A DNA stretch of 64,000 nt from Rhodocollybia butyracea (Eukaryota; Basidiomycota; Agaricomycetes; Agaricales; Omphalotaceae): assembly GCA_015501585.1 (NCBI GenBank), contig JADNRY010000032.1, forward strand, positions 1-64,000, in the 5' to 3' direction. The notes under the pieces were generated by a model. It made no database searches, was not told the origin of the DNA, and saw only the letters and a list, made by a program, of their open reading frames with translations. Numbering within the stretch: position 1 is the stretch's first letter; every line of letters begins with the position of its first letter. The translations under genes and the position numbers were made by a program. Shown here piece after piece: positions 36,300 through 54,600 of the stretch.

Positions 36300-36990
36300 C
36301 AAACCTAGGCTTGCCTAGGGAATCCTCAAGAGCCTTGACTGGCAAGGGACGAGCCCAAATTCCTAGGATGCCATAGGATTCATAGGTCACCTAGTTTGCT
36401 TTAGGCCACTCTGGGGTCACCTAGGCAAAAACGGCTTTTCCTGATGTCCCTTGTACTTCTTTTGGCTATTCTTGTCTTTTATACTCTTGGATTATTACCT
36501 ATCACTACTCTGGTCCTTGAGTACCCTCTATATAGTTCTGTACCATGTCAAGTACAGTAGATTAGAAATATTGCTTAACCCCTTGACTTGTGTGCTCTTG
36601 TGTGTTCTGGTTTCTTGCTTTATCTGTTTCTTCACTCCATTGTTTTCACAACCTCTGCAATTTACTCTATTTGGATCCAACTTGTTTGCATGCTGTCTGG
36701 TTTAGAGGTGGGCATGAATGCACATTTGAGTGCATTTGTCATTTGTGACACAAGTATGGACATCCTCTGGAGCCATGTTTGCACTCAAATGGGTGCCCAT
36801 CACGAGTATATACTTGTGGCAATGCACATTTGTGCCCCACGAGTCATCAGGAAAAGCCATTTTTGCCTAGGTGACCCCAGAGTGGCCTAAAGCAAACTAG
36901 GTGACCTATGAATCCTATGGCATCCTAGGAATTTGGGCTCATCCCTTGCCAGTCAAGGCTCTTGAGGATTCCCCAGGGTATCCTTGAACT
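36300..36990. repeat. Palindromic element split by an R1 fragment
   Basis: About 145 bases at 36300-36445 recur inverted at 36846-36990: TTCCTAGGATGCCATAGGAT and CAGAGTGGCCTAAAGC-type blocks pair across the centre. The spacer (36446-36845) is a piece of repeat R1 plus a block that also recurs at 50776-50935. A long palindrome with a foreign spacer suggests a foldback or MITE that received an insertion near its axis. Confidence 0.65.
36446..36845 (+). repeat. R1 fragment, copy 3
   Basis: 36446-36700 matches 13040-13260 and the inverted 50936-51180. 36700-36845 matches the inverted 50776-50935. Its order equals that of the 51-kb copy read on the minus strand, so the two came from the same element. 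Confidence 0.7.
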
Positions 36991-40523: not shown

Positions 40524-40795
40524 CGAAACAATTCCCCAATCCCTCTAGCAATTGTTCTGATCTCTCCCACAGCATCTCAATCATTCCACTGTCCCTCTCC
40601 CCAGGTATCCATTAACACAGCCTCCCTTATCATCCCTAGCACCTATCCTCCCTTTTCCTGGTGATCCTGTTCTTTGGTCTCCCTCCTCCTACACTCACAC
40701 ACTTCTCTACCTCTTCCAGACACTCCTTATCCCTCCCAGACACTCTTCTACACTCCTCTACCCATCCCTACCCATCCCAAAGCATACCCTATTCA

Positions 40796-40924
40796 TAATC
40801 TCGTTCCCAGATGTATAGGGAACGGCCCGGTAATCATAGGCATAAACAAAAAACCAAACAAGAAACAAACAACCGAACGTTCCCTAGAACATCTGGCGCA
40901 ATTTGACCGTGAGGGGTGGGCTCA
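40796..40924. repeat. Left terminal inverted repeat
   Basis: Begins TAATCTCGTTCCCAGATGTA and ends with the GACCGTGAGGGGTGGGCTCA block. Inside the arm CCAGATGTATAGGGAACG is itself followed 50 bases later by a near-inverted copy (CGTTCCCTAGAACATCTGG), so each end can form a stem-loop. Confidence 0.9.
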
Positions 40925-41346
40925 CAGCCACTGTGACATTTTAGCGCGCCAGGTCACCTGAGATTGTTTACCGCGCTTGTACTTGTCTCGACTTCCCTTT
41001 GCGTCTGTTGGCCGCTGGTAGGCCCTTCTCATGCCTGTGCACTCTCGTAGTCAGGATCATGAAAAAGACTGCGAGCGGTCACGCAGAAAGCTTGCTGCTG
41101 CTCGTATCGAAGCTATCCGGCATAGGCATGATGGTTATAATTCCGAAAAAACACGCGCTCAACTTTGCAAGGAATTCACGCGATGTACCAATGGAATGGT
41201 TGCATATGATTGGCAGGTGGATGTAGCTGAGGCGCTGCTTCTCGGGCTCGATTGCACTGTGATTGCTGGGACAGGGGCAGGGAAAACAATGCCATTCATC
41301 ATGCCTCTTCTTGTTGAGGCGAAGGAGAAACGGATAATCATTATAT

Positions 41347-42559
41347 TGTTATGACTCGATCAATAGTCTCATCCAAACCTTCACAGTACGTAACTCGGCA
41401 GTAAAAATGATAAGAGAAATTAATGAGATTATAGAGCAAGCCTTTTCGTTCGTTGAAACTGCTAGGCAAAAAATATATACTCAAACAACTAGGCTCAAGT
41501 ACAGTGAGTAACTAGTTTGTAATACAAAACTCACAGAAGTTATTATTTGGAGATAGCTCGACAAATAATAATAAGATTACCCTCGGAGATGGCTCGACAA
41601 GCAGTAATATGAATCAGAACTAATACTCGGAGTTGGCTCGACAAGTAGTAGTGAGTGTGGTGTCTAATACTCGGAGATAGCTCAACAAGTAGTAGTGAGT
41701 GTGATGTCTAATACTCGGAGATAGCTCAACAAGTAATAGTGAGTGTAATGTCTAATACTTGGAGATAGCTCAACAAGTAATAGGAAGTTGCAACTCGGAG
41801 ATAGCTCAACAAGTGGCAATTAAAGAAGTATTCACTAGGAGATAGCTCAACAGGTGAATGTTAGTGGATACAACTCGGAGTTAGCTCAACAAGATGTATA
41901 AATGTGTATTGTAGCTTGGAGATAGCTCAACAAGATACAATGAGTTGGTCTGGTGATTCACACAAGTGATAACAGCAAACAAGTGGGGGTTTGGATTTAA
42001 GAAAAATAATACGTCTAACGTACATTGGTAAATCTAGACTACTTATATACTGTGCAATGTGTACTAGTTAGGAAATGCTGCGGAATGACTAGATTTGAGT
42101 CATAACTGCGGAAATACTGCGGATGAGTCAGTCTGACTATGTAATGCTGTGCAATGACTAATATTGAGTCATGTATGCGGAACCGTAGTTGACTCAGATA
42201 TCTGGCTGTGCAATGACTGATATTGAGTCATTGATGTAAAGAGGCTATGCAATGATGTCATAGCTGTGGAGCAGTGATGTGATATCCTAACTGCGGAGCA
42301 GTGGAATGACATCATGATTGTGGAGTAGCAAGATGACATCATAGTTGTGGAGCTAGAATGATGTCATGACTGTGCAGACTGTGCAGTGACTGTTAAAGAT
42401 CATTCTGGTGTTCTGGAAGAATGTGTGCAGCATTAACCCAAATGGTGTTGAATAACTAATGAATGTAAAATGTTAAGTAGAATTATTAATGATAGTGTTC
42501 ATAGTTGGTTACAGAAGAAAAAAGATTGGGTGTATAGGATTTAGATCCGGGTCATAACA
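41347..42559. mobile_element. 1.2-kb solo LTR inside the helicase
   Basis: 1,213 bases starting TGTTATGACTCG and ending CGGGTCATAACA, flanked by TATAT on both sides (41342-41346 and 42560-42564). Removing it with one TATAT copy rejoins the helicase codons in frame (KRIIII then SPLNALEE), which confirms the boundaries. The 5-base duplication and TG...CA ends indicate an LTR. Confidence 0.85.
41545..41945 (+). repeat. Tandem ~40-base repeats within the solo LTR
   Basis: About ten imperfect copies of CTCGGAGATAGCTCAACAAG, spaced 29-45 bases apart, several followed by TAGTAGTGAGTGTGATGTCT. Further on (42090-42380) a second, looser repeat of ATGACATCAT and GCGGAGCAGTGG motifs occurs. Confidence 0.8.
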
Positions 42560-44972
42560 TATATCGCCTCTTAACGCGCTAGAAGAAGACCAGGTATGTG
42601 TTCTATAACTTCTCTTTCATTTATTATGCTTATTTACGCATTAACATCTAGGCCAAACGCTTCATCGAGATGGGATTAACAGCTGTTGCCGTGAACGGGG
42701 ATAATTGGAATAGCGATGTTTATAAGGTGTGTGTTTTTAACTACTAGATTTGTGTTTCTCAAACCCTTCTAGTCACTACAGCAAAATGAATACCAAGTCA
42801 TTATCACATCCCCAGACATGGCCCTCGAACATGCTCCTTTCCGCACAGTCCTTAGTTCACAGACTCTTGCCAAAAAAACTCTCGCTGTAGTTATCGATGA
42901 ATCTCACTGTATTTCTCAATGGGGTGATAATTTTAGACCATTATACAACCGACTTGGTGAATTACGCTCATACATTCCTGCAAAAGTTCCGTTTCTCACG
43001 ACATCCGCAACACTCCCACCTCTTGTCCTAGCTCAAGTTCGGAGCTCTCTTCACATCGACCCTCTGGAATCCTACCACCTTAGTATTGGCACCGATCGCC
43101 CCAACATTGCATACTTTGTTCATCACATGAAAGCAGGTAAATCAGATCTCGATGCACTCAACTTTGTGCTGAGAGCTGATCTGGCCAAGGACGAGATCAC
43201 TGAGCTCGTTCAGACTATGGTCTTCTTCGATGATATCAACCTGGGTCTAGATGCTCTGAAGCATCTTCGTGCACGCCTACCTCCTCGTCTCCGAGGTCAA
43301 ATCGCGATGTACAATTCACGTCACTCATCAAAGTCAAAAAAGCGAATTATGAAGGAGTTTTGTGAAGGGAAAATCAAGATTTTATTGACGACTGAGGCTG
43401 CTGGGATGGTACGTTCTAATCAAGGTCCATTGCTATATTATTGCGCTGTGATTTACCTCATATTCAACGTGTAGTCCAGTTTATGGTACCGAAATCGCTG
43501 GCTATCTGGCTTCAGTGAGCAGGACGCGCGGCTCGGAGTCGTGTCATTTGTGGGCAAGTATTTTTACTTGTTCAACCAACAGTGTTCCAGGAGAAGAAGG
43601 TGAAGGATGTGAAAGACGATGATGTGACGTATCGGAAAGATGTTGATGTCGGCTGCAATTGTGGATTGAGACGGCAGACTGTAGGCGTGAGATTGCCGCT
43701 GAGTACTTCTACGATGGCGTCGAACGTTCTTGTGAGATAATCATTCTACAATCGTTTGGTGTGGCTGATTTTGTTTCTCCAGCACCGACTGGTCTATGTT
43801 GTGACAACTGTACTCGCCAATTGGACCCTCTCCATTTTATTCTGTTACTTGATGTTTCCTCGCCCCTACCCACACAACCCGCCAATATCGATTATGGTGA
43901 TAACGAGGCCACTCCATCTTCTGAGGTAAACGAAAACAGCAAGCGGCCTCTTCTTCCGCTTGCAAACCGACGGGGTGAACATCTTGCTTTAGCGCGTGAT
44001 GCTCTCTCTGCTTGGCGGAAAGACATGTATGAAAGATTGTACAAGACCCGAGGTTGGGGTATGAATGTGTTACTACCACCAACAATTCTCACTACACTTT
44101 CTACTCATGCCCGATTACTGTCTGTTTTGGACTATATTGATGCTGGCTGGTCAAGTCTTTTTGTATGGCGGCACGGAACTGAAGTGCTTGGACTTCTCTC
44201 GAAGCTTGACGGTGATTTTCACGCTGCTGTACAGAGGGAAAAGGGTGAAAAGGCCAATGCTCTCAAGTTGGCAAGAGAGGCCAAACGTGCCGAAGAAGCA
44301 CTAGCCAAGGAGGAGGCTCGTAAAATCCGTGCTGACATAGCGCAGAAGGCTAGAGAGGAAAAGGCAGCAGCAGTAGTTCAGCGTAAGGCTGACGTGGCGC
44401 GCAAGAGAGCTGCGGACAAAGTTTGGTTAGCTGTGGAGAAAGCTACGCCCAAACGGTGTGGTCGTCCTCCAAAGAAAACTGAACCGCTTACACCTCAAAC
44501 ACCTTTGCCTGCTCTTTCCAGCGAACAACCGCCAATGGACCCAACTATTTCTCAACCTCGCCCTCTTCCTCGCCCTCTTATTTCGCAAACTCCTCTCTCT
44601 CCGCACAACCGCAGTCACATACGCTCGTTCTCTATGCACCCTGCTGGAATCGAAAATGCTCCCGTGCGACCTTCACCTTCTACCATTGTTCCTTTACCGT
44701 TCAACCCTTATGCACACTTTCCAACCACATCTTTTTTGAGTCCAGCATATGCTATGCCTACTACCCATACCACACCTTCTACTTTGCATTTGGATCAATA
44801 TATCACTGGCAACCCTCTCTATAGTCCATATACAATTTCTCCTACTCCTATGATACCTTCGTTAACATTTCATTCAACTTTGCACCATTCATTTCCTGCC
44901 ACTACTGAACCACCCCCATATAATGTACATACTAGAAACTATAATTATGCTCACGATACTACCAAAGAATGA

Positions 44973-47900
44973 TTACAGTGGTTTCATATCTGTCCAATCC
45001 TCCTCTGTGCTTCGTGTAAGTGTTCTTTGAGTAAACCATTCCTCAGCCTTCTTTTCAACATTCATAGCACCAAGAGTAATGACATCTTTTGAAGTGTTCT
45101 CGCCCAAACTACGCCTCCCTGGGCTATAAACATGAAGGCTGTTGGTTGTATAATGGCTAAGCAATTCTTGAACATCGGCAGTTTTATCTGGTGACCCATG
45201 TCTCGCTCCACGTGAAGTACTTCCAATTTGTGTCTCGATATTTCGGCACACACGGTTGAATGTAGGAATCCCTGGAGATATTCTTCCGGTGTATTCGATA
45301 GTGGCTCCGGGGCCACTCGAGCGGTAGTTTACTTTGACATCCCGCACATTATGCTCCTGGCCAAGGTCAAATGCAAGGAAGCTATTAGGTTTTCCACTTT
45401 GGGTGAAGATCCAACACCATTTTCGAATATGTGTTCTATAGTCAATTGAATACACACTCTATTTTGGAATGACTTATTACTTACCTGATCTCTGGTGGCC
45501 ATTCTTGACGGAGGCCTTGTAGAAGATTGAATACCTCGACCGAGTAATTTGTGTTTCCCCGCCAACAAATCGGAACAATAATGTAGGAAGTAGATTCTCC
45601 ATCCATCCAACATCTCCTTTCCGAATGGCAGCACGAAGATCAAGATATGAGAGGACATCCCTATTCCACATAATCCATTGGCATAACTGTGGATCGTGCT
45701 TGTCCTTCGGGTGATTTTTGGTCAGGTCATGGACTGCCGCCGTTGAAGCATGCTCGTTAATTAATTTAACAGCCAGCCCATGAAGTTGTACAGGGGACAA
45801 CATAGTGAGATCTGAGAGCTTCGTAACCTTTCCAACTGCTAACCATGAAGCGAGAAAGTGCGCTTCACTAATATGGTGTATTGCCTCATCGAGATGATGC
45901 CAAAAGGGTCCCTTTGTAGCGGTGGAAGTTAAACCTTTGCGCTTCAGAACATCGAAAGCATGTTTCAGTGATCCAATGACGGCAGAACTGCCTAGATATT
46001 GCTTGTAGAGGGAGTTTGCAAAGGCCATAATGAGATGGAACCAACCAAATAGAGGGACCATCCAATCAAGACGATCAAATGAATTATGGTCCTCATGCCG
46101 CTGGCGCCATAATCCTCGAAGACGGTCAGCAGTGAGTTGGTCCCCAAGCCAAACAATGAACCTCTTGAGACCTGTAGTCTGTTGCTCCTCGACACTTTGA
46201 AGGCAAAGCAAACACAAAATGAACATAACAACTTTGAGCGTGCCATTGTAGCTGGCCATCACTAAATCTCGAGAGTTATCATATTTGATTATGATCTGGA
46301 GAACTCACTGGCGGTCAGCCGTAACCGAGATAATGTCCTGATAATGGTGCTAAGCATTTGACAATTGATTATAATGCATTAAACGCTTAGCCCAAATTCG
46401 AAAATGATTACTGTCATATTATCAAAAGATGATAACTATGTCCTTCATTTGCCATACATGCATCACCCTTCTGTCTGCATTGTAGTGAGTAAAAATACTT
46501 ATACTGCATCGTAACGGGAGAGAATATTTATATGTGATTGAACAAATTATCAGGTTAGAGCTGGCAGGCAGCTTTTTCTGGTCGCTTTTGTCGCATTATT
46601 AACTGGTAACCATCCATGAATTCAATTGAGCAGTAACACATTTTATTCCAAACGATACATATAAGTTAATTACTACTACTATAGTAGGTATATGGGGACA
46701 TAACGAGAGGGCTAAAGTACGAGGCTGCAGTGCTTGAATTTTGAAATCAACTTGAAGAACCTTGAGCCGTATTGGCTTGGAGCAGCGAAAGAAAACATTG
46801 AGGGAACTGCATTGGATTGCTCAGCAGTCTGGAGTGTAGTCGTGACTAGCATGGAATGAGCTTCGAGTAAATTTTGAGGTGAGTTATGACCTGAGCTTGG
46901 GTATCTTGAGTTGACTTGACAGAAGTTAGAACCATTGACAGTAAAGTGGGGAAGAAAGATGTAAACGTGTAAAAGCATTTAACCCAGTTTAAATACCATT
47001 TTGTGTGGGTAATAATCGACGCGGTTGCTATTACCCGTGAGGGTCAAGAGGGAACAACAAGCTACAACGAGTACAGCTAGTACAAGCGACTGACAAGCAG
47101 ATCTTGATGCATATAAGATGAGTTGTCCCTGCTGTGGAGCACTGTACCCTGTAAGGCGGAGCCGAGTATGATACAATGACCATTATTGTACTAAAAGACT
47201 GTAGCATTTTATAGCACCGTATAATCATGGCGCAGAAGCTCTTAAACTTACTCGTGCTCATCATTCATGACCATGCTCATACTGCGTCTAGGTCAAAGTC
47301 ATAGGAGCCTGAGCTCTAGGTGGTTTCGGGCTGTGACAGCCTAATGGTCGGCTCACCGTTTGATCGTAAGGGTTGGTTTGAGTTTCGAATCAAAGGGCGG
47401 CATGCTTGTGGCGAAGAAAGCGATACTTTTACTTAAGTACCGGAAAGGAGGCTACTAGAGGTGAATCTACTATGAAGAATGAAGGATTCAGGCAAGTGAA
47501 TCATTTCGCGAGTAAAAAGGTTAACAAGTTCGAGTTGCGAAGTTCTTGGAATCCAGCCTTAGTAGTACTCAAACTTTATGAATATTACTATGTCATGACG
47601 AGGAAAATACATATGATTACATTACCCAGAAGACATTCCTCAGCGTTGGAGAGAGATACAAGGACGACATAATGAGGATATGAATCTCATATAGCAAGAT
47701 CATCTGGGAGGAAGAATTACAGGGCAATGACAATCAATTTTAGGCTGCTCTCAGGATTACCGCTGTCAGTATTCTCGGTATAATCATTATGTTCCGCCCA
47801 TAATCACTCATAATAAGAGGAAAATCATTTTATCCGACCGCTAGCTGCATTATAATCCATTACCGCACTGTGTAATCTTTATTACACCTGGTGAGAGGTG

Positions 47901-49354
47901 TAATCCCTGGCAAGGTTTCCCCGGATTTAGTGATGGCTTCCTCTTGGTCAAGGGTTGGACCAATGTATCCTTCAACAATACTATCTGGACCAGTGTCAAG
48001 TTGAAAGACTGGAGAAGGAGGAGCAAAGGCTGGATTATCTTTATGCCTTTCGGAGTACTCTGCAAATTCTGGACAGTCAAGGAGAATACGAAGCACAATG
48101 TCAACATTCTGGTTGAAGATTTGTTCATCTTTTTGCGGTTCACCGAAGATGATGGGATCCAAGTCAAATAGTGTATTGGAGTGTATGCAAAGATATTCCT
48201 GGTATTGACGGTTGATGTTGGGAGGAAGCGTAACATGTTTTGGAAGAAACCAAACAGTCCATGCTGTGGCACTGACAAAATGGCTCTGATTATGAAGGCG
48301 CTGTGAGAATACACGGATGGGAACATTGAGATTGTCATGTCCGATGTTAGAGACTCTGGTTCCAAAAAGGCTACGTGTCTTTGTCATAGCTCTATTTGAG
48401 AGAACTACAAATGCATTCAATGCCCATCGATGGCTCATGCAGATACCAAGTGCATGCATAGCATCAAATGCACGAGCAGAAAGTCCACACGACTTCAAAT
48501 AAATGGCCCAAAGCTTTGCAAAGCGGCCGCGACGTGACGAGCGTGTATATTGAAGCTGTGAAATGATACTGAGTACAACCTTCGCAAGTCAGTGAGCCAA
48601 TGAATATAAATACAAACATTTCACTTACCATGTCAGGATCCTTGTGCTTGTTACGCTTTACTTGCCTGGTAGTATAAGCAGCCTTCTGTAACAGAGTCCA
48701 GAGTGTGTTGTTTGAATCCCGCACAGGTCCCTTCAACAAATGAAAGCTTGTTCCAAGAAGCTGCTCCTCGGAGGTGTCTTCTGGATCCGACAGGAAGATA
48801 GGGGCAGACTGCCGCAACTCCCTATCAATCAAATTAGAAATGCACTCTTTCGCAAATGCTTGCATGGCTAGTTTTGCGCCCAAAGGCCGCAGACCTTTCT
48901 GTGTTGAGCCGCGGGGAGGCTTATGCCATACACGTAGGATTTTGAGGAATTCGTCGCTCAGTGTCAATGACTGTCATGCATATGTGCATCTGGGATCGGA
49001 ATGACATTCAGAATCACCATAGAATAGCGCATCAAGGAAGAGCAGAAGGTCCATATCATGATCCTGCATTGATTGAAGGATAGTATGAACAGCAGGTAGT
49101 TTGGAGTTGTGTGACCCTTCCCATCGTGCTTTCCGTTGGAGGTGATGTGTGATAGCAACGGGATTAACAGGCTCGGGTGCCCTTTCATCGTCAGACAATT
49201 CATCTGCACAGTTATCGGACTCATCATCTGCAAAGTTGCTGTTTTCAGGTTCAAATGATTCATGGTCAGGATGTTCAAAGAGATCGTCGTATTGCATGAA
49301 CAGATCATCATCGAGTTCTTCACTGGGTATGGAATTGCCTGAATCGGATGGCAT
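44973..49354 (-). pseudogene. DUF6589-family protein gene, disrupted (candidate transposase)
   Basis: Exons: 49354-48629, 48579-45485 (interrupted), 45435-44973. The acidic N-terminus is followed by LLLFLDALFYGDSECHSDP, WHKPPRGS, KDPDM-VVLSIISQLQYTRS, ARAFDAMHALGICMSHRWA, DNLNVPIRVFSQRLHNQSHF, then RFIVWLGDQLTADRLRGL, NSFDRLDWMVPLFGWFHLI and ISEAHFLASWL, ending RSSGPGATIEYTGRISPGIP. I recognise this as the basidiomycete DUF6589 family, whose function is not known to me. The Asp of GDQLT, the Asp/His of DW...GWFHL and the Glu of EAHFL are spaced like a possible RNase H-type DDE core; that is inference. Damage: an Arg CGA to TGA (48974-48976), a CACTA-type element (46260-47932), and one G missing near 45556 (GG for GGG before NTNYSVEVF). 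Confidence 0.8.
46260..47932. mobile_element. CACTA-type non-autonomous element inside DUF6589 gene
   Basis: 1,673 bases beginning CACTAAATC and ending GATTTAGTG, inserted between EEA and the ASYNG segment of the DUF6589 exon. AT flanks both ends (46258-46259 and 47933-47934), a 2-base duplication; CACTA elements usually make 3. TIR identity beyond the first 9-10 bases is weak. The interior (46560-47700) has no recognised coding sequence. A faintly tRNA-like stretch near 47330-47400 is not convincing. Confidence 0.65.
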
Positions 49355-49434
49355 GTATTCAATCGCGGTGCGTGTTTTCAATTGAGAGTGTCAGTCACTG
49401 CGAAATCACACCGTTACATATGTCGTCATGTCAC

Positions 49435-49571
49435 TGAGCCCACCCCTCACGGTCAAATTGCGCCAGATGTTCTAGGGCGAAGGGCTGATGTTTGTTTCAT
49501 GTTTGTTTTTTGTTTACATCTATGATTATCGGTAAAGCGGTCCGTGCCCTATACATCTGGGAACGAGATTA
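49435..49571. repeat. Right terminal inverted repeat
   Basis: Inverted match of 40796-40924: the outer 25 and inner ~42 bases are identical, and the middle differs by small indels. Followed by the CCCTATTCA duplication. Confidence 0.9.
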
Positions 49572-49580
49572 CCCTATTCA

Positions 49581-50154: not shown

Positions 50155-51405
50155 ACTTTAAAACCCTAGAAAGGAGGAAAGTGTAGAACAGTTCCGAAGT
50201 GCCTATAGGATGTAAGACTCATGTTGGGGTACATAAATACAATTTACTATACTTGATACCTGCTTGCAGAAGCCTTTTACAGTGCTCGGAACCTAGTTAA
50301 TTAATTATTGTAGTAGTTACAAGTATATACTCTATGTATGACTAACCGGGGGGGAATGCAGAATGATAACAAGGTTACGGGACTTTATATAAAGTCCTGC
50401 CAGGCCATGTGACCTATCAAACATGTTGAACAGTTACGTTGATTGTTTCAACCACGTTTGGCACATCAGCAAAACGTGGGTGAGCTGGCGCCGTTGTCAG
50501 GCACTATACAGCCATTTCCAGTGATTCTCAGCGGCCCCCAGCGCTGTACAGTGCCGGAAAGCGGCTTCCCATGCACCCACATTTTGCTGATGCATCACAT
50601 GAGCCTGCAGTGCTCTTATATAAGGGCCCACAGCTTCATTTCCTTCCCCATCTCCCTAGAAGTAGGTCAAATACCATAATTCTCATTAGATATTACTATT
50701 TATGGCAATAAATATCATGTATTGCATTATGTGTTTAATTTATTATAGCTATACTCACAAGTGTGGATATTCCGAATCGTGGGGCATGAATGTGCATTTG
50801 CCGCAAGTATATACTCATGATGGGCACCCATTCGAGTGCAAATATGGCTCCAGAGGATGTCCATACTTGTGTCACAAATGACAAATGCACTCAAATGTGC
50901 ATTCGTGCCCACCTCTAAACCAGACAGCATGCAAACAAGTCGGATCCAAATAGAGTAAATTGCAGAGGTTGTGAAAACAATGGAGTGACAAAACAGATAA
51001 AGCAAGAAACCAGAACACACAAGAGCACACAAGTCAAGGGGTTAAGCAATATTTCTAATCTACTGTACTTGACATGGTACAGAACTATATAAAGGGTACT
51101 CAAGGACCGGAGTAGCGATAGGTAATAATCCAAGAGTATAAAAGACAAGAATAGCCAAAAGAAGTACAAGGGATGAAAAGACAATGATGGACATAAGCGG
51201 AAGCGGGGATGGGCATAAAGCATATGTATGATTGTAAGAATAATGGAGAATGGATTGGCGGGTTCATAGAAAGTGTACAGTGAAGGAAAATTTAAGAAGG
51301 AGGCAAAGCGGATGTATATAGGAACTGGAAATGCGGTGGGAGTGAATAATGTAACTGTAACCAGGAAACGTTGGCAGTCTGTATATGCCTGGGGTATGAC
51401 ATCTA
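50155..51405 (-). repeat. R1 repeat, copy 2, interrupted
   Basis: Inverted relative to 12815-13620: 50173-50240 and 50936-51405 match in the expected order. Between them lie a hairpin MITE (50461-50600), an 18-base perfect palindrome GGACTTTATATAAAGTCC (about 50380-50397) and a block shared with 36700-36845. Confidence 0.6.
50461..50600. mobile_element. Short hairpin MITE, copy 1
   Basis: About 140 bases with inverted ends (CATCAGCAAAACGTGGGTG against CACCCACATTTTGCTGATG) and an inner pair (GGCACTATACAGC against GCTGTACAGTGCC). A second copy lies at 51540-51665. No duplication was resolved. Confidence 0.65.
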
Positions 51406-51688: not shown

Positions 51689-54600
51689 TCATGACTGAGA
51701 CCCCAGGACATGCCCAGCATTCTGCTTCAAATTAGTGAGGTCAATGTAACAAAGGTGTAATCTAAGTAGAAGGAAATATTGGTTGCCTGAAGTGTATTTG
51801 CCCCCTTGGGCATTTACATCTGCTTTGTGTTCCAAAAGAAGCTGAACAATATCCTTGTTTCCTTTACTGGCAGCAGCCTGGAGTGCAGTCCCATATTCTC
51901 TCCCTTGGGCATTTACATCTGCTTTGTGTTCCAAAAGGAGCTGAACAATATCCTCATATCCTGCACTGGCAGCAGCCTGGAGTGCATTCCCATATTCTCC
52001 CCCTTGGGCATTGACATCTGCATTGTGCTCCAAAAGAAGCCGAACAATATCCTCTTTTCCTTCACTGGCAGCAGCCTGGAGTGCATTCCCATATTTGCCC
52101 CCTTGTGCATTGACATCTGCTTTGTGCTCCAGAAGGAGCTGAACAAGATCCTTATTGTCATGCCATGAAGCTGCAGCAGCCTGGAGTGCATTCCCATAAA
52201 ATCCCCCTTGGGCATTGACATCTGCTTTGTGCTTCAAAAGAAGTTGAACAATGTTCTTGTTTCCTTCACTGGCAGCAGCCTGGAGTGCATTCCCATATTC
52301 TCCCCCTTGGGCATTTATATCTGCTTTGTGCTCCAAAAGAAGCTGAACAATATCCTCATTTCCTTCACTGATAGCAGCCTGAAGGGGATTCCCATACTTT
52401 CCCCCTTGGGCATTTACATCTGCTTTGTGTGCCAAAAGTAGCTGAACAATATCCTTGTTTCCTTCACTTGCAGCAGCCAGGAGTGCATTCCAATACTTTC
52501 CCCCTTGGGCATTGACATCTGCTTTGTGCTCCAGAAGAAGCTGAACAGTATCCTTGTGTCTTCCAAAGGCAGCAGCCTGGAGTGCAGTCCCATATCTTCC
52601 CCCTTGGGCATTGACATCTGCTTTATGCTCCAGAAGAAGCTGAACAATATTTACCTTTCCTGCAAAGGCAGCAGCCTGGAGGGCATTCCCATAAAAACCC
52701 CCTTCGGCATTGACATCAGTGTTGTGCTCCAAGAGAAGCTCAAAAATATCCATGTGTCCTGAATTGGCAGCAGCCTGGAGTGCATTCCCATAAAATCCCC
52801 CTTGGGGATTGACATCTGCTTTGTGCTCCAAAAGAAGTTGAACAATATCCTTCTTTCCTTCAATGATAGCAGCCTGGAGTACATTCCCATAAAATCCACC
52901 TTGGGCATTCACATCTGCTTTGTGCTCCAGAAGAAGTTGAACAATATCCTTGTTTCCTTCACTGATAGCAGCCTGGAGTGCATTTCCATATTCTCCACCT
53001 TGGACATTTACATCTGCTTTGTGCTCCAAAAGAAGCAGAACAAAATCCTTGTTTCCTTTACTGGCAGCTGCCTGGAGTGCATTCCCATACCTTCCTCCTT
53101 GGGCATTTATGTTTACCATATTTTTCACTAGCAAATGCTCAGCCATTGATAGCACACCCAAACAAGCCATATAATACAGTGAGGTTGATAGTTCACTTGG
53201 ATCTTTGGTTGGATAATAGTAGTGGTTCAACTCGTCTTCTGCATCTGGATACATTCTAATCCAATTCACATATGACAGTTGACTGCTGTCTTTCAAGAAT
53301 GTTGTGGCTAAGTTCTCAGCTGCAAGTTGATGGTTGGAGCCTCTATTTTGTATCTTTTCCATATGCAATGGCCATTTCTTTGCAGCATATAATGCTAAAG
53401 GATATAACTTTTCAAGGTTAGATTGGCTCTCAGGCAGTATGTCCTCTGAGTCAAATTGGAAGAGATAAATCAGACATGTTTGACATATTACAGAATGGGC
53501 CAAGTCCTCATTGATTTCAAACAGTTTGCCTGTCTGCCCTTGAGCATGGGTTTGAGTAAGAAACTCTTTCACAGAATTGTGTGCCAGTTGAACAACCTCA
53601 TTCTCAGAGCCGCTCCAAAAGTTTTTTTTCACACTGACAGTAATCAATGTGGAATCCAAGATATCATAAACCCTCTTTTCCAGCTCTAATGACCGAGCTT
53701 CAGGATCAAAGATTTGGACTTCCAGGTCTACTGCAAGAATGTCTGTAACTTGTCCAATTGACAATGGTTGCAATGCATATGCCAACCACATAAGAAGTTG
53801 GCTTGCATCATGCACATGTTCACTTTCTTTCATTCTTGTAAAGGCTAGAGTGTATGTTTCCTCCAGGGTCTTTGGCAGCTTCTTCAGTGCCTCCCGGATT
53901 GCTTTGGGTGTGGCACATTTTTGCAGTGCAATTACTTGGCAGTCAACCCAACGAAACCTTTGTCAGGATTTTCCTTAGCCATCATTCAATTAATTCTTTG
54001 GATTACTTACTGGCCTTGAGCTTCTTGAGTCAAATGGGCAACTATTTCAGTTAATAATTCTGGCTTCAGTTTCCGAGCCTTGAATTTTGCCTGCAGGTAT
54101 TTGGCAACATCCTGATGAAACACAGACTGCATATCATCAAGGTAAATATGCCATGAGGCACCATAACCTGCATCAGCCAAATACCGACTGGTTACAGCTA
54201 TGCAGAGGTTGTCCTTAAGAAGAGCAAGATGTTCAAAAACATCAATTGCCTCGCTACATTCATCCATGGCATCCAGCACAAGATAGACTGGGCTTAAGTC
54301 CTTAGAAACAACTGCCAGAGTTGCACTTAGTTCTGCTGTGGTAGGCTCCATCAGACCCTGCATGCATGTTGTATACAACTCATGGAGGGCAGGATGAGTT
54401 CCCTCATTCCGTGTAGCCATTTGGAGCAAAAGGGATTGAAGGAGGCCCCGAGCATCGGTCTTAGTCTGTGAGTTATCACGGTTGTCAAAATAGTAGTAGC
54501 ACAGTAATGATGCTGGATTGGCCTTGAGGTTTTGAATGATAACTGTCCTAAAAAATCACATCAGAAATATGATAAATAACATCATGTCAATGTTGTATGC

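Follow-up and report, generated by a model that had tools for sequence, protein, structure and literature searches.

The window analysed here is a stretch of 64,000 nucleotides from the mushroom Rhodocollybia butyracea (contig JADNRY010000032.1, positions 1 to 64,000). Between positions 40796 and 49571 it contains a copy of a DNA transposon, bounded by terminal inverted repeats (TIRs) of about 140 bp and an exact 9-bp target-site duplication (TSD), CCCTATTCA. The element carries a gene for a RecQ-like helicase and a gene for a protein of the Pfam family DUF6589 (PF20231), both of which are broken by insertions. We consider it very probable that this is a transposon of the Academ kind, from the helicase-bearing lineage (AcademH), that DUF6589 is its DDE transposase and that this copy is now damaged.

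Ends, target site and genes of the window element

The inverted-repeat arms align in two segments, 40796-40829 with 49538-49571 (34 nt, 94%) and 40882-40939 with 49420-49477 (58 nt, 88%), or in a single alignment of 40796-40924 with 49435-49571 (83%). By eye, the arms are identical over the outer 25 bases and over an inner run of about 43, close to the 25 and about 42 of the original prediction, which had been made from the letters of the sequence. The left and right tips both read TAATCTCGTTCCCAGATGTATAGGG, and the left TIR has 45 matches in its own genome, itself included. The chance that two 9-mers match at fixed places is about 4e-6 at equal base frequencies. As the insertion site lies within another repeat, copies of that repeat could be used as empty sites. 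The joined flanks with one copy of the 9-mer (870 bases) were used as a query, for which 13 long genome matches that cross the insertion point are listed, the window excluded. The best of these (C499:5028-5460, 97%, query positions 230-658) is the one that was aligned base by base; it contains CCCTATTCA once and lacks the insert. The TIR alignment, the exact duplication and this empty site bear out the earlier proposal of a TIR-bounded mobile unit. Outside the element there is an inverted pair of 400 bp (36447-36845 and 50774-51173, 96%), at the ends of which no duplication of 7 or more bases was found.

The recognisable pieces of the helicase gene lie at 41031-41346, 42785-43420 and 43447-43587, followed by a last frame (43659-44972) for which there was no confident Pfam match. 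The first piece includes the motif GTGAGKT (41268-41288). Pfam matched DEAD at 26.3 bits (cut-off 26) and Helicase_C under its cut-off, and the best PDB sequence matches were RecQ, BLM and RECQ5. The DUF6589 gene has Pfam matches at 45477-46262 and 44973-45455, and by tblastn a relative matched 48265-48588 and 45561-46205. The two genes stand stop against stop, with last frames ending at 44972 (helicase, forward strand) and 44973 (DUF6589, reverse strand). The gene content is thus as predicted; the interruptions of the genes had not been mentioned.

These interruptions are a solo long terminal repeat (LTR) inside the helicase gene and a repeat of 1.68 kb inside the DUF6589 gene. The first 154 bases of the solo LTR have at least 39 matches besides itself among the matches listed, all at 98% (40 candidates scored), some of them paired at distances of 4.7-6.1 kb. 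The LTR (41347-42559) contains internal 44-bp tandem repeats and belongs to a high-copy family. The exact ends of the 1.68-kb repeat were inferred from its inverted tips, and a copy at C494, 82% identical, is uninterrupted at this place. The 445 bases from 46256 have at least 24 genome matches among those listed; several of these are 99-100% identical, and the repeat has therefore probably been active recently. It has an apparent 2-bp duplication, GC, and none of the listed frames that reach 120 codons lies wholly within it.

Table 1. Features of the window element, and units elsewhere in the genome that are bounded by TIRs and 9-bp duplications.
Feature	Position	Strand	Evidence or duplication
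Left target-site duplication CCCTATTCA	40787-40795		Exact copy of 49572-49580; single in paralogous empty site
Left terminal inverted repeat, tip 5'-TAATCTCGTTCCCAGATG	40796-40939	+	Inverted-repeat alignment; genome matches
RecQ-like helicase gene, interrupted	41031-44972	+	GTGAGKT; Pfam DEAD; matches to C656, C684 and C1272 helicases; PDB sequences
Solo LTR, 1213 bp, in helicase gene	41347-42559		TATAT duplications at 41342-41346 and 42560-42564
DUF6589 gene (probable DDE transposase), interrupted	44973-49381	-	Pfam DUF6589; tblastn; frames
Nested 1.68-kb repeat, ends CATCACTAAATC/GATTTAGTGATG	46257-47935 (approx.)		Missing from C494 copy; repeated in genome
Right terminal inverted repeat	49420-49571	-	Inverted-repeat alignment
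Right target-site duplication CCCTATTCA	49572-49580		Exact match to left copy
Window unit	40796-49571		CCCTATTCA
C684 unit	C684:1643-10510		TCAATTACA
C720 unit	C720:39831-46916		CCTCTATAC
C401 unit	C401:51005-58092		CATGGTACT
C1310 unit	C1310:3616-10702		GGATGTAAG
C1172 unit	C1172:14484-20377		GTTACAACC
C1225 unit	C1225:11157-17094		ACGTTAAAT

The helicase and DUF6589 pair across the genome

The association of the two genes was investigated in one genome, the R. butyracea assembly. Its 68 DUF6589 matches, one of them under the family cut-off, were grouped by hand into 41 clusters, and RecQ-like matches from three queries fell in 52 places. A RecQ-like place lies within 10 kb of 24 of the 41 clusters, where uniform scatter would give about 0.45. 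The pair thus recurs genome-wide, and membership in one transposon, as had been proposed, explains many of the matches to both families here.

We examined 11 DUF6589 regions, the window and ten others. Seven of them hold the pair between tips that read 5'-TA(G/A), flanked by exact duplications of 9 bp (Table 1). The C720, C401 and C1310 units are 99.5-99.7% identical to the element at C656. As these three are copies of one family, the seven bounded units represent five families. Helicase identity separates three deep groups: C684 and C656 share 57%, C1225 and C1172 share 67%, and other pairs share 24-35%. The helicase pieces of C656 and C1272 match Pfam DEAD/Helicase_C, and that of C1225 is tied in by its similarity to the helicases of other elements, C684 among them (E 1e-12). 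The genes are convergent in the window, C1172, C1225 and C1272, and head to head in five copies from two families (C684; C656/C720/C401/C1310). As both orders occur, the tail-to-tail arrangement named in the original prediction is not a defining trait.

A loose rule for TSDs gave further candidates, a 10-mer at C656, a 10-mer at C1272 and two extra 9-mers at C1172, which we took as chance. All had 6/9 tip matches, a score equal to that of the accepted C1172 element, which was retained because it ends at matching tips within the TIR alignment and because its ends resemble those of C1225. A stricter scan recovered the expected ends only for the window and C1225, with three inner matches at C1225. 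The C1172 element seems to be inserted in a small palindromic sequence (C1172:14456-14483, CAAGCTTG...), which gives it extra inverted flanks. A correlation between helicase and DUF6589 divergence over six elements (Pearson 0.92; Spearman 0.20, p 0.48) was discarded as evidence, because two close pairs drive the Pearson value.

Five loci with short relatives of the window element (639-659 bp) were scanned, and four of them show an exact 9-bp duplication. At C1072, ends of the window family lie about 5.2 kb apart without a TSD, and neither the helicase nor DUF6589 matched there at E<=1e-4; at C455 no end pair was found with the tips searched. Two further window-family end pairs, at C506:159296-175005 and C863:15854-29847, lie 14-16 kb apart, and no DUF6589 match is listed between them.

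DUF6589 as the probable transposase

AlphaFold models of proteins from two DUF6589 lineages match the DDE transposases of Hermes, the P element, RAG and Transib, with a predicted RNase H-like fold; about 7-12% of the residues are identical when the structures are aligned. At the sequence level, DUF6589 matched nothing in the PDB at E<=1. Acidic residues are conserved in the two lineages. In the window gene, the first Asp (DNLN) is at 48334-48336 and the second (GDQLT) at 46140-46142, and NRD at 45657-45659 is a candidate for the third acidic position. DUF6589 proteins are found in Lentinula, Mycena, Schizophyllum and other mushroom fungi among the matches listed (the best 120 of 213 and the best 120 of 409, with about 8000 candidates scored each), among which no animal relatives were found, and the limited literature collection that we searched yielded no printed function for DUF6589 or PF20231. 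As the TIR-bounded units with 9-bp duplications recur with the helicase pair, and as the predicted fold is DDE-like in both modelled lineages, DUF6589 is probably the transposase of the element. This agrees with the original prediction, and it is probably the new part of the finding.

The duplications and the predicted fold support a model of insertion by cutting and staggered joining. The DUF6589 transposase would bind and pair the terminal repeats and cut the element out, after which it would be joined to a target cut with a 9-base stagger, and gap filling would produce the 9-bp duplication. The same enzyme may mobilise the short non-autonomous copies in trans, as their shared ends and duplications suggest. 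That divergent families share the pair suggests that the helicase is needed; it may be an accessory protein, which probably remodels the ends or helps to resolve or repair donor and target DNA.

In this way PF20231 gains a probable function, that of a DDE transposase rather than a host gene. If this is true, many "DUF6589" and RecQ-like gene models could be removed from host gene counts. The diagnostic ends (5'-TA(G/A) and a 9-bp duplication) will help to find copies, whether complete or non-autonomous, and it becomes possible to test what a RecQ helicase does in a transposon.

Place among known transposons

Several points weigh against an AcademH element with DUF6589 as its transposase. The AcademH label was given by gene content, TSD length and literature descriptions, not by transposase homology. 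No RecQ-like match lies within 10 kb of 17 of the 41 DUF6589 clusters, and a Pfam search with the helicase piece from the C1225 family had no hit at E<=0.01. Four of the 11 regions yielded no TSD: the C656 element is as in C720, C401 and C1310, but its flanks lack a duplication; the C875 element is truncated by the contig end; C1272 has a 41-nt inverted pair (78%) with no TSD found; and at C433 the TIRs are at 54438 and 68519, with the left end beyond the stretch scanned for TSDs. With Foldseek alone, no structure matched DUF6589 at E<=0.001, Hermes coming closest at E 0.028. The modelled proteins are relatives (the window DUF6589 shares 24% identity with that of C684), and for the third catalytic residue there is so far a candidate.

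A motif that bears on the alternatives is C/DxxH, which lies between the second D and the last E and is described as common to hAT, P, MuDR, Kolobok and Dada in the part of PMC9587614 available to us. We looked for it in 64 DUF6589 homologues at one place, the invariant His H372. The residue three positions before is A, Q, T, M or S in all 64 and never C or D, which by this test puts DUF6589 outside those superfamilies.

DUF6589 could instead define a superfamily of its own, independent of Academ, with a fold close to those of hAT, P and RAG, an obligate RecQ partner and helicase-dependent, possibly replicative transposition; we regard this as unlikely. We likewise see little chance that the element belongs to a helicase-bearing DDE superfamily distinct from Academ. 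Such a distinction would be consistent with a comparison that rests on descriptions of Academ and not on its sequences, and with the fact that a search of the literature collection turned up no mention of DUF6589. Against it, the RecQ helicase, the 9-bp TSD, the basidiomycete host and the lack of C/DxxH at H372 all fit Academ as described in the available portions of the published accounts.

Long TIRs and TSDs of about 9 bp are typical of Mutator-like elements (MULEs), and the window element has both, so that the ends of a MULE might have captured the helicase and DUF6589 genes. ISCth4, which we take to be an IS256-family transposase, is also among the fold matches of the first DUF6589 model. 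However, DUF6589 was the sole Pfam model matched in all 64 homologues at E<=0.01, no MULE transposase model was found in seven window frames at E<=0.1, and the H372 test speaks against MuDR as well. A one-off capture would not explain a pair shared by five families in three deep groups, which makes this reading very improbable. A Kolobok element with a RecQ helicase (KolobokH) is the least credible candidate: such elements encode a RecQ helicase and are known only from fungi, and one red-algal Kolobok has its helicase on the complementary strand, as in the window (PMC9587614, in part), but Kolobok duplications are described as TTAA, 4 bp, against the 9 bp without a TTAA rule seen here, and C/DxxH is absent at H372.

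By predicted fold the DUF6589 protein resembles the catalytic domains of Hermes (hAT), the P element and Transib/RAG1, but it differs from hAT and P in the lack of their C/DxxH at the conserved His. KolobokH shares with the window unit a RecQ helicase and a fungal host, as far as the available account goes. The original prediction knew of no described superfamily with this gene pair. In the portions of these papers that we could consult, however, a RecQ helicase is reported in Academ (PMC3627910, citing Kapitonov et al.), and 1,568 of 1,938 fungal Academ copies have recognisable protein domains, such as DEAD (PF00270) and recQ_fam (PMC6416283). The combination with a helicase has therefore already been described, and our result is mainly a useful re-annotation. 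The fungal copies, often annotated as host genes (PMC6416283), resemble the window unit in their DEAD and recQ domains, and differ in that DUF6589 is not given as the partner in the account consulted. In Marasmius oreades, putative non-autonomous elements of the MULE and Academ types are reported to be widespread (PMC8290104, in part). AcademH is described, again in partial sources, as having target duplications of 9 or 10 bp, a length linked to the helicase (PMC10045372), and as being present in Basidiomycota, Ascomycota and Mucoromycota (PMC10799480). Duplications of this length occur in the window, in six other units of the 11 regions and in four of five short relatives, and a RecQ-like helicase in the window, C656 and C1272, and by similarity in C1225. 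Compared by these descriptions rather than by transposase sequence, the window element resembles AcademH as a helicase-bearing DNA transposon of Basidiomycota with 9-10-bp TSDs.
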